From Deltaproteobacteria bacterium (lineage in GTDB: Bacteria; Desulfobacterota; DSM-4660; Desulfatiglandales; B25-G16): 8,551 bases of DNA. The stretch is from positions 1-8,551 of the forward strand of contig JAFDHR010000104.1 in assembly GCA_019308645.1 (NCBI GenBank), read 5' to 3'. Positions 5,211 to 8,551 of the stretch are shown piece by piece. The position numbers and the translations under genes are program-made. Each line of letters starts with the position of its first letter. The stretch's first letter is position 1. The notes under the pieces are model-generated. The model searched no databases. It was not told the origin of the DNA and saw only the letters and a list, made by a program, of their open reading frames with translations.

Positions 5211-5579
5211 ATGATTAAAAAAATAGCATCATCCGGGATATTGTTTTTTATTGTGGGTCTGACTGCTGCCTTTTTCATGCTTTCACAGGCTGAGCTGCAG
5301 GCAGAAGACAGACCGTCAACAGCAGAGAAAGAAAAAATTTCTTCAGAGGCGGTGTTAAGCGGGGATGGCCTGGCATTTGCCTTTATTGCGGCAATGGGAG
5401 CGGTTGGTTTATCCTGTTTGGCGAGTAGTTATGCGCTTGGAAGGATCGGTTCCGCAGCTCTTGGCGCTATGAGTGAAAAGCCGGAGCTCGGAGGCAGGGC
5501 CCTGATCTTTCTCGGGCTGGCGGAAGGAATAGCCATTTATGGGCTGATTGTTGCAATTATGATCCTGACCAAGATTTAA
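5211..5579 (+). CDS. ntpK: V-type ATPase subunit K (proteolipid c subunit, single hairpin)
   Basis: A 122-residue membrane protein forming the rotating c ring. Residues 8-25 are a hydrophobic N-terminal helix resembling a signal peptide (ending ..AAFFMLSQAELQA), followed by a polar linker rich in Glu and Ser (about 27-50). The true hairpin follows: helix one about 52-76 (GLAFAFIAAMGAVGLSCLAS), a polar loop GAMSEKPELGG, and helix two about 95-120. Helix two contains GLAEGIAIYGLIVAIMI with Glu105, the ion-binding carboxylate of the family. Only one hairpin is present, unlike the duplicated 16-kDa type. No Gln is seen in helix one, which leans towards proton rather than sodium coupling, but this is a weak inference. 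The N-terminal helix may be cleaved. The stop codon TAA (5577-5579) lies within the left copy of the direct repeat flanking the inserted element. Confidence 0.93.
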   Translation: MIKKIASSGILFFIVGLTAAFFMLSQAELQAEDRPSTAEKEKISSEAVLSGDGLAFAFIAAMGAVGLSCLASSYALGRIGSAALGAMSEKPELGGRALIFLGLAEGIAIYGLIVAIMILTKI

Positions 5580-5584
5580 AGTTT
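5577..5584 (+). repeat. Left copy of 8-bp target-site duplication (TAAAGTTT)
   Basis: TAAAGTTT occurs exactly here and again at 5806-5813, immediately outside the two ends of the terminal inverted repeats. The identity stops at both edges (T versus C before, G versus A after), as expected for a target duplication made on insertion. This copy includes the K stop codon. Confidence 0.8.
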
Positions 5585-5624
5585 GTATCTACTCAGGTAT
5601 CTTGCCACAAAGACACAAAGACCC

Positions 5625-5646
5625 GCCTGCCGGATGGCGGGCAGGC
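5625..5646. repeat. GC-rich hairpin inside the MITE-like element
   Basis: GCCTGCC (5625-5631) and GGCAGGC (5640-5646) are perfect complements around an 8-base loop. An alternative pairing uses CCCGCC (5622-5627) with GGCGGG (5636-5641). It is the most GC-rich part of an otherwise AT-rich element. Confidence 0.7.
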
Positions 5647-5685
5647 ACCAAAACTATAGAATTATTCTTTATTATAGCCTTTTTT

Positions 5686-5705
5686 AATCCCGATAAATCG
5701 GGATT
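5686..5705. repeat. Perfect 9-bp palindrome inside the MITE-like element
   Basis: AATCCCGAT and ATCGGGATT flank a central AA, giving a 20-base perfect dyad. It has no T-run after it in either direction that would make it a classical terminator; on the + strand a TTTTTT run precedes it. Confidence 0.75.
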
Positions 5706-5708
5706 GAA

Positions 5709-5733
5709 ATTAATGAGCCTGAGGCTCATTAAT
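5709..5733. repeat. Perfect 12-bp palindrome inside the MITE-like element
   Basis: ATTAATGAGCCT (5709-5720) and AGGCTCATTAAT (5722-5733) are perfect reverse complements around a single central G. It begins 3 bases after the preceding palindrome, and the two may stack in RNA or form a cruciform in DNA. It is not followed by a T-run, so termination is not obvious. Confidence 0.8.
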
Positions 5734-5805
5734 GAGAAAACTACGTTATTCAATTTATATTCATCTCTTCTTTGTGCCTTTGTGCCTTGGTGGCTGAATA
5801 GTTAC

Positions 5806-5813
5806 TAAAGTTT
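5806..5813 (+). repeat. Right copy of 8-bp target-site duplication (TAAAGTTT)
   Basis: This is an exact second copy of the sequence at 5577-5584. It lies between the right end of the element and the start codon of subunit F. Joining the two copies into one gives a K stop codon followed by five bases and then the F ATG, the tight spacing expected in this operon. Confidence 0.8.
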
Positions 5814-6119
5814 ATGGAAAAAATATATATACTGGGAGATATCCATACGGTTACTGGCTTTCGGCTTGCCGGGGTCGAAGGAAGGGTTGCAGATAGGGAA
5901 AGTGTAGATATACACCTTAATGAACTTCTAAAAAGAGGGGATGCAGGGGTAATAGTTATTACCCGGGAGCTGGCCGAAGAGATACCGGAAAAGATTTACA
6001 GTGTCAATTTAAACTCGGTCACACCGGTGATCATTGAAATACCCGGCATTGATGACTCAAGGGGTTTTAGCACGTCAATACTCAATTATATTACTGAAGC
6101 ATTGGGAATATCCATTTGA
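5814..6119 (+). CDS. ntpG: V-type ATPase subunit F (central shaft)
   Basis: A 101-residue soluble protein of the AtpF/NtpG family (usual length 95-115) that, with D, forms the rotating central shaft coupling the A3B3 head to the ring. The N-terminus MEKIYILGDIHTVTGFRLAG matches the family signature (beta strand, GD, then VTGFrLAGveG). GDAGVIVITRELAEEIPEKI and TPVIIEIPG follow, completing the Rossmann-like fold before a short C-terminal helix. The start is certain from the family, but no Shine-Dalgarno sequence is present. Before the MITE-like insertion, translation was probably coupled to the end of K; now 234 bases separate the two genes. E begins 11 bases after the stop. Confidence 0.9.
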   Translation: MEKIYILGDIHTVTGFRLAGVEGRVADRESVDIHLNELLKRGDAGVIVITRELAEEIPEKIYSVNLNSVTPVIIEIPGIDDSRGFSTSILNYITEALGISI

Positions 6120-6130
6120 GTAACTGAAAA

Positions 6131-6790
6131 ATGGAAGACAATACTTTGAAAACAAATAGGGATGAGACAGCACTGATAAACTCACTCAGAGAAAATTCTG
6201 CCCACAAAAAAAGTGTTATTATGCAGCGTGCTGACGATGAGATAAGCAAGCTGGAGAAGAGCTATATCTCAGATATAGAAGAATTAAAAAAGAAGATCAA
6301 TGATGAGACCGGCAGTAAAATTGATCAAGAGCTTTCAAAGATTAGAAACAGGGCACTCATTGAGAAAAAGAAGCTACAGTTGCGCATTATAGAAGATTTT
6401 ATTGCAACCATGATTGAAGAGGCGATCTGTGAACTGAGAAGTAGTGGCAAAGATAGATATAAAGAATTTTTACTGGATGCAATGGATGAATCGCTTTCAC
6501 AGATCAAGGGAGGGGAGGCTCTGGTTTACATCTCAGAAGAGGATATGATGCTGGAGGGAACAAATATTAAAGAGACTATTATGCAGAAAGCAGGACATTC
6601 ACCGGACATCAGTATAGTTGTGGATAAAGATATAACTCAAGGGGGGGCTATTGTTTTTGATAAAGAAAGAGGTCTCTATTACAACAGCACCATTGAGAGA
6701 ATTGTATATAGAAAATTCGATGAGATACGCAAAAAAGTCTTAAACATTCTTTCTGAAAGGAACATTATTAATAACCAACTAACCAGGTGA
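6131..6790 (+). CDS. ntpE: V-type ATPase subunit E (peripheral stalk)
   Basis: A 219-residue protein, slightly longer than the usual 185-210. Residues 1 to about 110 form a long charged helix (LEKSYISDIEELKKKINDET, then LIEKKKLQLRIIEDFI) that pairs with the G/H-like subunit. Residues about 110-205 form the globular alpha/beta domain that binds the top of the head: SGKDRYKEFLLDAMDES, GEALVYISEEDM, and the conserved stretch DITQGGAIVFDKERGLYYNS close to the C-terminus, followed by TIERIVYRKFDEIRKKVLNI. The GG(a/v)iv...g...vd/nnT-like pattern is the best family marker. ATG 6131 follows CTGAAAA, the same bases that precede the start of subunit C (CTGAAAAATG in both), without a clear Shine-Dalgarno sequence. 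A 201-base spacer with hairpins separates it from A. Confidence 0.88.
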   Translation: MEDNTLKTNRDETALINSLRENSAHKKSVIMQRADDEISKLEKSYISDIEELKKKINDETGSKIDQELSKIRNRALIEKKKLQLRIIEDFIATMIEEAICELRSSGKDRYKEFLLDAMDESLSQIKGGEALVYISEEDMMLEGTNIKETIMQKAGHSPDISIVVDKDITQGGAIVFDKERGLYYNSTIERIVYRKFDEIRKKVLNILSERNIINNQLTR

Positions 6791-6874
6791 AATTGAAAGC
6801 CCAATAATTTAATATATCGGAATTTCTACAACTTACTGAAATTAGAGGTTTTAATGACAACCGATTTATGCCAT

Positions 6875-6899
6875 CCGGGCCGTAGGCCCTACAGGCCGG
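6875..6899. repeat. GC-rich imperfect palindrome in the E-A spacer
   Basis: A 25-base dyad centred on C6887. CCGGGCCGTAGG and CCTACAGGCCGG are complementary at 10 of 12 positions. It stands out strongly from the AT-rich surroundings and resembles dispersed REP-like sequences, though I do not recognise the family. It has no T-run after it. Confidence 0.65.
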
Positions 6900-6908
6900 A
6901 GTCCAATT

Positions 6909-6921
6909 GGGGCGAAGCCCC
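6909..6921. repeat. Small perfect hairpin GGGGC-GAA-GCCCC in the E-A spacer
   Basis: Five G-C pairs close a GAA triloop, nine bases after the preceding palindrome. The pair of hairpins may protect or shape the operon RNA between E and A. No riboswitch or terminator pattern could be recognised around it. The rest of the spacer (6791-6874 and 6922-6991) also holds an AATTTC/GAAATT dyad (6821-6826 and 6838-6843) and no gene. Confidence 0.65.
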
Positions 6922-6991
6922 TAAGTTCGAGGATAGGAAAGTGTGAACACAACTTTAAGTAGATACAGCGCAAGAAGCTAAAGAGGCAAAG

Positions 6992-7645
6992 GTGGAAGAG
7001 TCAGCTATAACAGGAAGAATTATAAGCGTTAATGGTCCTATTGTTAAGGCTAAGGGTTTAGTGGAAATCAGCATGTTTGATATCGCAGAGGTTGGACCGG
7101 ACAGGCTTATTGGTGAGGTTATAAGGCTTGAGGAGGATCTTGCCATTATACAGGTTTATGAGGATAATACAGGTCTGAAACCGGGAGATGAGGTGCGATC
7201 CTATGGCAGACCATTATCTGTTTTGTTAGGACCCGGGCTGATTGCAAACATTTATGATGGTATCCAGCGCCCCCTCATAGGAATTGCAGAAAGCTGTGGA
7301 AACCACATCCTCATGGGAACTGCAGATAGATGTTATATTAAAAAAGGGATAAAGATAGCTCCCCTGGATCCTGAAAAGAAATGGGATTTTAAACCCACTG
7401 TCAAGGAGGGGGATGTCGTAAAGGAGGGTTCTGTAATTGGAGAACTTCAGGAAACTGAATTAGTCCTTCATAAAACAATTGTGCCACCGGGAATCACAGG
7501 AAAGGTTGAATTTATTGCTGAGGCCGGAGGATATTCAATAGAAGATCCTATATACACAATTGATCAGGGCAAAAAGATCTATAATGGAAAACTTGCCGAT
7601 TACTGGCCTGGTAACACCTCTCATTACCGGGCAAAGAATACTTGA
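6992..7645 (+). CDS. ntpA: V-type ATPase catalytic subunit A, N-terminal fragment (frame broken)
   Basis: This frame encodes the first roughly 206 residues of subunit A: the N-terminal beta-barrel ([55 protein letters not shown]) and the bulge, or non-homologous, domain (DWDF-like [15 protein letters not shown] through [20 protein letters not shown]). Homology reaches the WP at 7604-7609, the beginning of the family's WPVRxPRP motif. The frame then runs on with [11 protein letters not shown], which is out-of-frame reading of the next conserved block, and stops at 7643-7645. The GTG start at 6992 has AAGAGG (6981-6986) five bases upstream. The frame is open back to 6959, but without an ATG. 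The rest of the gene continues in another frame from about 7611. On its own this fragment lacks the nucleotide-binding domain and cannot be catalytic. Confidence 0.85.
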
Positions 7646-8551
7646 TACCTTTTTCCCTATTGCCAGAGGCGGCACCGCTGCAATTCCCGGAGGGTTTGGG
7701 ACCGGTAAGACTATGACTCAGCATGCTCTTGCAAAGTGGTGCAACGCAGATATTATTGTGTATATTGGATGTGGTGAGAGAGGCAACGAGATGACAGAGG
7801 TGCTAAACGATTTTCCGCGGCTTGTTGATGAGAGAACCGGAAGGCCGCTAATGGAAAGAACGGTCATGATTGGCAATACATCGAATATGCCTGTTCCTGC
7901 ACGGGAGGTAAGTATTTATACTGGCGTTACTATTGCAGAGTATTACAGAGATATGGGTTACAGCGTTGCAGTCATGGCGGATTCTACCTCACGCTGGGCT
8001 GAAGCACTTCGAGAGCTGTCAAGCAGATTAGGAGATATGCCTGCAGAGGAGGGCTTCCCACCGTATCTTGCAACCAGGCTTGCAGAATTCTATGAAAGGG
8101 CAGGCCTTGTAGAGACACTATCGAATGAGGAAGGCAGCATAACAATTATCGGAGCCGTGTCTCCGCCTGGTGGTGATTTCTCAGAGCCTGTTACACAGCA
8201 CACTACCAGATTTATACGATGTTTCTGGGCCCTTGACAAGATTCTTGCAGATGCACGGCACTATCCTTCAATAAGCTGGATAGATAGCTATACAGAATAT
8301 CTTAATGAGATTCAAGAATGGTGGAGTGAACTTGAAAGTGAGTGGATCGCGCTGCGAAATGATGCAATAAATATATTGCTGGAGGATACCAGGCTTCAAC
8401 AGATAGTTAAGCTTGTTGGTCCCGATGCATTGCCTGTGGGTCAGCGATTCATCCTTTTCTGCGCTGAGATCATTAAGAATGCATTCCTGCAGCAGAATTC
8501 TTTTGATCCCAAGGATATGTATTGCAGTCCTGACAAGCAGATAAAGCTCCT
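7584..8551 (+). CDS. ntpA: V-type ATPase catalytic subunit A, nucleotide-binding and C-terminal part (runs off window)
   Basis: The frame is open from ATG 7584 to the window edge. True homology starts at [16 protein letters not shown] (from 7611). The P-loop GGFGTGKT lies at 7689-7712; relatives mostly have GPFGSGKT, so Pro is replaced by Gly and Ser by Thr. The catalytic loop [13 protein letters not shown], the block [38 protein letters not shown] (Walker B region) and [15 protein letters not shown] all follow in order. The helical C-terminal domain then starts and is cut by the window edge, perhaps 50-60 residues short of the end. Every catalytic motif is intact, so this part has been kept under selection until recently or is still used. 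The ATG at 7584 lies in the region overlapping the upstream fragment and is not a normal start for this family. Either it is a real split or recently broken gene, or the break is a sequence or assembly error. Confidence 0.85.
7604..7616 (+). other. Frame-change and deletion junction within subunit A gene
   Basis: Tgg-cct (WP) in the first frame is followed directly by gta-aca-cct (VTP) in the next frame. In the family about 18 residues run from this W to the P before the (L/M)xTGQR motif. Here the same span takes 16 bases instead of about 54, so roughly 38 bases are missing, a number that by itself produces the frame change. The lost stretch holds the conserved VRxPRP linker. Confidence 0.7.

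Follow-up and report, generated by a model that had tools for sequence, protein, structure and literature searches.

Mobile insertion cassettes (MICs) carry a passenger gene between the ends of an insertion sequence (IS). In the section of PMC3281130 that deals with them, MICs are described as non-autonomous elements moved by an IS, and two rows for IS66 in a table of the same paper give the value 8, taken here as the length of the target duplication; MICs also come up in PMC3913671. Within the IS66 family, an element of the ISBst12 group, ISDge4 of Deinococcus geothermalis, has the ends GTGACTACTCAGCA and GTAACTGCTCAGCA and an 8-bp repeat, CCTCGATG, according to the relevant part of PMC12898284. 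A term search of a review on miniature inverted-repeat transposable elements (MITEs; PMC10969869) returned no occurrence of "IS66". The GxxExxY protein family (TIGR04256; PF13366, a nuclease fold) is named in PMC8934634 and PMC12085832, and PF13366/PDDEXK_3 is named in PMC9756366. Mobility of GxxExxY genes is not described in the passages of the open-access literature where the family is named, and no description of its function was found in the portions of that literature covered.

We describe herein a 221-bp element between two genes of a V/A-type ATPase operon. The window, that is, the whole stretch of DNA that was analysed, comprises 8,551 nucleotides of contig JAFDHR010000104.1; loci and genomes used for comparison are designated by L and G numbers. 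The evidence taken together makes it very likely that the element is a MITE-like transposon, non-autonomous and with ends of the IS66 type (ISBst12-group-like), and a relic of a cassette that carried a GxxExxY gene.

The element between ATPase subunits K and F

The 221-bp segment is enclosed by the exact 8-bp duplication TAAAGTTT (5577-5584 and 5806-5813). Its terminal inverted repeats match at 10 of 12 positions when GTATCTACTCAG is compared with CTGAATAGTTAC in reverse complement; in the inner arms, CACAAAGACACAAAGA/TCTTTGTGCCTTTGTG, 15 of 16 positions are paired (Table 1). A preliminary description of this DNA had reported the bracketing duplication, the end match, and the pairing of the arms, and all three were confirmed. 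The arms can also be placed in alternative registers, one of 17 nt at 88% and one a 40-nt arm pair at 75%. An exact 8-bp repeat next to ends that match at no fewer than 10 of 12 positions, 60-600 bp apart, occurs only once in the window, and 200 mononucleotide shuffles of the window yielded one such case in total. The DNA fold of the element is stronger than that of 200 shuffles (z -7.4), as is to be expected from inverted arms. No Pfam or NCBIfam match was obtained for the element's own 68-aa open reading frame (ORF), nor did a search of plasmids return any match to the element. Like a MITE, the window element is short, is devoid of a transposase, and has inverted ends and a target duplication.

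Table 1. Features of the insertion and of the genes on its two sides (window coordinates)
Feature	Position	Strand	Remarks
V/A-type ATPase subunit K, frame intact	5211..5579	+	PF00137 (ATP-synt_C)
Left 8-bp target-site duplication TAAAGTTT	5577..5584		The stop codon of subunit K (5577-5579) lies within it; the empty sites of 4 relatives have one copy
Left terminal inverted repeat GTATCTACTCAG	5585..5596	+	Agrees with the right end at 10/12; alignable with 17 further copies
Left inner arm, 8-bp iterated word CACAAAGA	5604..5621	+	Repeat listing of the window
Nested palindrome CCCGCCTGCC..GGCGGGCAGG	5619..5646		Missing from the similar copy L138; dispersed independently elsewhere
Putative GxxExxY gene 3'-end remnant, broken by two palindromes	5655..5741	-	Window copy scores 38; shuffles reach at most 31 and 27
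Nested palindrome AATCCCGATAAATCGGGATT	5686..5705		Missing from L138
Nested palindrome ATTAATGAGCCTGAGGCTCATTAAT	5709..5733		Common to several copies
Right inner arm, CTTTGTGC iterated	5769..5793	+	Repeat listing of the window
Right terminal inverted repeat CTGAATAGTTAC	5794..5805	+	Identical to the ends of IS66 element L111
Right 8-bp duplication copy	5806..5813		Followed directly by the ATG of subunit F (5814)
V/A-type ATPase subunit F, frame intact	5814..6119	+	PF01990 (ATP-synt_F)

Neither the stop codon of K (5577-5579) nor the start codon of F (5814) is broken by the insertion. A scan of genome contigs for subunit I kept 80 loci, the close ones being L001-L004, with 87-92% protein identity (L004 over part of the protein) and 88-95% identity in the adjoining DNA. 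At the K-F junction, all four of these relatives lack the element and contain one copy of the 8-mer, and their flanks together with that copy match the window at 40, 39, 35, and 38 of 41 positions (L001-L004, respectively). The 8-mer of the empty site is TAACGTTT in L001 and L002, one base from that of the window; in L003 it is TAACGGTT and in L004 TAACATTT, each of which is two bases away. The preliminary description had claimed a recent non-autonomous transposition that preserved both reading frames. The four empty sites, each with a single 8-mer, agree with this claim, as do the further copies and the full-length element with the same ends described below, and the word "recent" is apt on the scale of relatives whose adjoining DNA is 88-95% identical.

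The gaps of this ATPase operon collect small elements. Between subunits F and E, L002 contains a GxxExxY gene within GACGCAGAT arms (8640-9170), L001 (4225-4370) and L004 (1753-1895) contain arms without the gene in the same place, and the window (6119-6131) and L003 contain neither. This is what loss of the gene from an arm unit would look like, with gain of the gene as the alternative. The gap between E and A varies in short repeats among relatives (window 6800-6960, L002 9856-10169, L004 2649-2761), and in L002 another element with ends of the same type and a flanking repeat at 6/8 (12051-12176) occupies a further gap, after subunit A. The subunit A reading frame of the window is itself split (7480-7760), 38 bp being missing near 7610 relative to L002 and L003, with a frameshift; the loss is either a real deletion or an assembly error.

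Copies in relatives and the probable mobilising family

When the right-end pattern plus two bases was searched on both strands with up to two mismatches, 49, 85, 9, and 31 matches were counted in G001-G004, versus 20, 16, 13, and 15 for the same pattern read backwards; G001, G002, and G004 are above this control and G003 is not. A 24-base end pattern allowing up to three mismatches found 17 of 61 genomes (G002 and its relatives), and its control found none. With the window element as the query, G002 yielded 67 matching stretches and G004 yielded 47, with 40 candidates scored per genome, and G001 and G003 yielded none; the element type is accordingly multicopy, as MITEs are, in relatives G002 and G004. 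Eighteen copies, the window's included, could be aligned over ends, arms, and core; they had been chosen for likeness to the window element and represent one arm class. The palindrome CCCGCCTGCC..GGCGGGCAGG (5619-5646) is also dispersed alone, since 42 listed matches (of 114 tallied) cover only about query positions 31-62. Of these palindrome-only matches, 33 are in G004 and 9 in G002, and one adjoins a larger match. Short palindromes would have been inserted into some copies of the element, the window copy among them.

The duplication was assessed in 38 pairs picked by their ends alone; it played no part in that choice, though the first scan, by which the IS was found, did use it. Exact abutting repeats were present in 14 of the 38 pairs at length 8 (one being the 1642-bp IS itself) and in one at length 5, with none at 6, 7, 9, 10, or 11, in a set that was drawn from L001-L004 and from loci fetched for an end match and is uninformative on genome-wide frequency. 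Twenty pairs were within one mismatch at length 8, and 15 had flanks that matched at no more than 4 of 8 positions. Dealing the flanks anew 1000 times gave no exact repeat and a mean of 0.17 pairs within one mismatch. In a second set of 13 new pairs, from 30 further loci (L196-L225), four were exact and seven within one mismatch at length 8, none was exact at 5-7 or 9-11, and five matched at no more than 4 of 8.

A full-length element with these ends and an 8-bp duplication was found in G001 (L111). This IS is 1642 bp long, has GTAACTATTCAG-type ends that agree at 12/12 positions, is flanked by the exact duplication TAAAAATA, and encodes a 507-aa transposase in one long coding-strand ORF that spans it; antisense ORFs of 83-142 aa are also present. 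The 507-aa ORF matches DDE_Tnp_IS66 (3.1e-47), DUF6444, and zf-IS66, and scores 321.7 bits with transpos_IS66 versus a cut-off of 180. Compared with autonomous IS66 elements in other genomes, the window element shares 10/12 positions at the left end and 12/12 at the right. A motif-free search of 30 IS66 loci required GT..AC ends, inverted at no fewer than 9 of 14 positions, and 8-bp repeats differing by one base at most. The same 12-bp ends came up at L167 and L169 (43% identity), 12/12 on both sides and with exact repeats; L181, L184, and L186, which are remoter, had exact repeats and ends of the GTAAC type, and nothing was found at the remaining 25. The IS66 homologues L166, L168, and L170 carry the end motif on both sides (up to three mismatches) with no matching flanking repeat. 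A plasmid search with the 1642-bp IS gave partial matches of 69-71%, two of them annotated as IS66 among the 8 of 11 records listed.

Judged from these comparisons of sequence, the 221-bp element was very probably moved by an IS66-type transposase, by transposition. An IS66-family transposase acting in trans would recognise the GTAACTATTCAG-type ends, and insertion at TAAAGTTT with an 8-bp stagger and duplication would preserve the stop codon of K and the start codon of F. The preliminary description had proposed that the 8-bp duplication constrains the choice of transposase family, and had pointed to further copies and a full-length transposon as the things to look for. Relatives do contain copies that share these ends and have 8-bp repeats, the full-length transposon is the IS of G001, and the duplication length does help to point to IS66.

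The core and the GxxExxY gene

Read on the minus strand, the core of the element matches the final ~62 nt of a GxxExxY gene (TIGR04256; PF13366). The core of copy L123 can be aligned to the terminal 62 nt of the L239 gene, up to the stop codon, with a score of 81; 300 shuffles reached a maximum of 28 and the opposite strand 23. In the frame of the gene, the L123 sequence reads FLINFNVPRIKKTI versus FLINFNVPLIKEGI. The cleaner copies L099 and L123 scored 83 versus 23 and 28, and the window copy scored 38 with the end of the L239 gene versus 27 (200 shuffles). Among the 18 window-like copies, 15 were clearly above 200 shuffles when compared with the GxxExxY 3' end, two (L135 and L002) were above by no more than 3 points, and L087 was not above. 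A shared palindrome accounts for part of the similarity between the core and some GxxExxY genes, which gave high opposite-strand scores; the L123-L239 comparison is free of this effect. As shown by alignment, then, the core carries a degraded 3' end of a GxxExxY gene on its minus strand. The idea that the 5' end of the gene was kept as well was rejected, the best head score being 26 and control loci reaching up to 30. The preliminary description did not reach this far: the core looks like the remnant of a passenger gene, not of an IS.

GxxExxY genes were also found in relatives. TIGR04256 matched nine times in G002 (seven over the cut-off) and five times in G004 (four over), with no match in G001 or G003, and 11 of 12 further relatives had a match, 10 of them over the cut-off. 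From relatives, 44 GxxExxY loci were fetched, and the gene was located by tblastn in 41. IS66-type ends bracket 12 of these 41 loci, nine of them with a duplication of at least 6/8, whereas 100 scrambled ends bracketed a mean of 0.87 loci (maximum 7) and a mean of 0.01 (maximum 1) with a duplication. L232 and L239 have a common flank and may represent a single insertion present in two genomes. Arms of the CAC(A/C)AAG-like kind found in the window occur in L232, L239, and L255; in L249, L250, and L156 such arms are present, though no good combination of ends and duplication was obtained in this test. In L232 and L250, the GxxExxY coding frame contains a G+C-rich palindrome similar to the nested one at 5619-5646, and this palindrome seems to keep the frame open. 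The element would be what an internal deletion left of a mobile insertion cassette that consisted of IS66 ends, iterated inverted arms, and a GxxExxY gene, and is probably a gene-stripped GxxExxY mobile cassette.

Three other explanations have to be weighed against a GxxExxY cassette mobilised by IS66. Several IS families, for example IS256, ISL3, and IS1595, make 8-bp duplications, and a MITE moved by another such family could resemble IS66 elements at its ends by coincidence. The distribution of the transposase lends this some weight, as IS66 transposase was not found in most copy-bearing relatives searched, including the copy-rich G002 and G004. It was found in one of the four nearest relatives, in one of 15 further ones, and in 36 of 297 genomes of the phylum; the NCBIfam IS66 model matched in three of 16 relatives, over the cut-off in two, and the match in G303 has different ends. 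The assemblies of relatives are mostly in many contigs, from which repeats are easily lost, and the transposase gap stands nonetheless. However, a close-relative IS66 element and two remoter homologues bear the exact 12-bp ends together with exact duplications, and a coincidental likeness is therefore highly improbable.

The second explanation retains IS66 and dispenses with the gene: an ordinary, internally deleted IS66 element with an IS-derived core, which is the usual origin given for MITEs in the pertinent part of PMC3189936. Against the interiors of three IS66 elements, though, the core showed no similarity beyond shuffles, and the GxxExxY 3' end scores far above shuffles in 15 of 18 copies. 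As far as these three elements can tell, the core is not IS-derived. The deleted-IS explanation was rejected on the first of these results and is, in our view, unlikely; because the core is not from the parent IS, the element is filed as MITE-like and IS66-type rather than as a deleted IS. In the third explanation, the segment is not mobile but regulates the ATPase operon as a conserved RNA or an attenuator. This would account for the strong fold (RNA z -8.6), but that fold follows from the inverted arms. Such a role is hardly credible, and was rejected, given the absence of the segment from all four close relatives, the lack of an Rfam match at the gathering score, and the position of both terminator-like sites on the minus strand.

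The gene and its arms extend beyond the relatives with IS66-type ends. A GxxExxY gene was present in 20 of 50 genomes behind other loci of the subunit I scan. The arm analysis kept 29 of 30 distant loci (L259-L288; 20 genomes) and 34 of 44 near ones, those with no gene match or less than 150 bases of flank being dropped. IS66-type ends surrounded the gene at none of the 29 distant loci. Inverted arms with a score of at least 15 were present at 18 of the 29 distant and 11 of the 34 near-relative loci and at none of 544 control ORFs (any ORFs of 100-200 aa in L005-L080); at a score of at least 12, the numbers were 19, 20, and 8, respectively. Arms therefore often accompany the gene, and the IS66 ends seem to have been added locally. 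The arm words vary among loci (CACAGAG, GACAGGATT, CACGGAT, CGCGAAA, and CACGAATG) and not every arm is a word array; as periodicity reached significance in 18 of the 39 arms analysed, "iterated" is true of many arms, not all. The residues G..E..Y and D..E.K are conserved partly by construction, 45 of 75 loci having been chosen by patterns that contain them. A wider reading, possible but put forward tentatively, is that GxxExxY genes together with inverted arrays of 8-10-bp words form a widespread, undescribed class of bacterial mobile unit, in which the nuclease-fold protein would target the arms of its own unit and every unit would have a word of its own. The IS66 ends would then be a shell added by some lineages, and many intergenic CACAAAG/CACAGAG/CACGGAT repeats, the window's included, would be debris left after loss of the gene.

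Relation to known systems

As a MITE-like element, the insertion is ordinary; its passenger-gene origin and the wider arm pattern deserve attention. An intergenic repeat is tied to a definite transposase family, and a route is suggested by which MITEs arise from passenger-gene cassettes and not from the IS itself. The GxxExxY family gains a concrete genomic setting, namely inverted word arrays and sometimes transposon ends, in which its role becomes testable. The arm words did not turn up in the open-access literature searched, and the earlier suggestion that the element family is undescribed is not contradicted by that literature.

In the parts of PMC9769881 and PMC3189936 that describe them, MITECca01 and MITEPsy1, respectively, are short and multicopy, have inverted ends, and contain no transposase, like the window element, and MITEPsy1 also makes a target duplication; these two are tied to IS982 and, questionably, to IS5. 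The ISBst12 group, as represented by ISDge4, has ends similar to those of the window element and shares the 8-bp duplication, and its single transposase gene is matched in the presumed parent, L111. The window element differs in having no transposase and in a core that, as far as tested, is not IS-derived. To the GxxExxY family (TIGR04256, PF13366) it is linked by the 3' end of such a gene, which appears to persist in the core. The arrangement of a passenger between IS ends, typical of MICs, fits the gene-carrying relatives, with IS66-type ends, a GxxExxY passenger, and iterated inverted arms; the window copy, in which a remnant takes the place of an intact passenger gene, has lost the gene.
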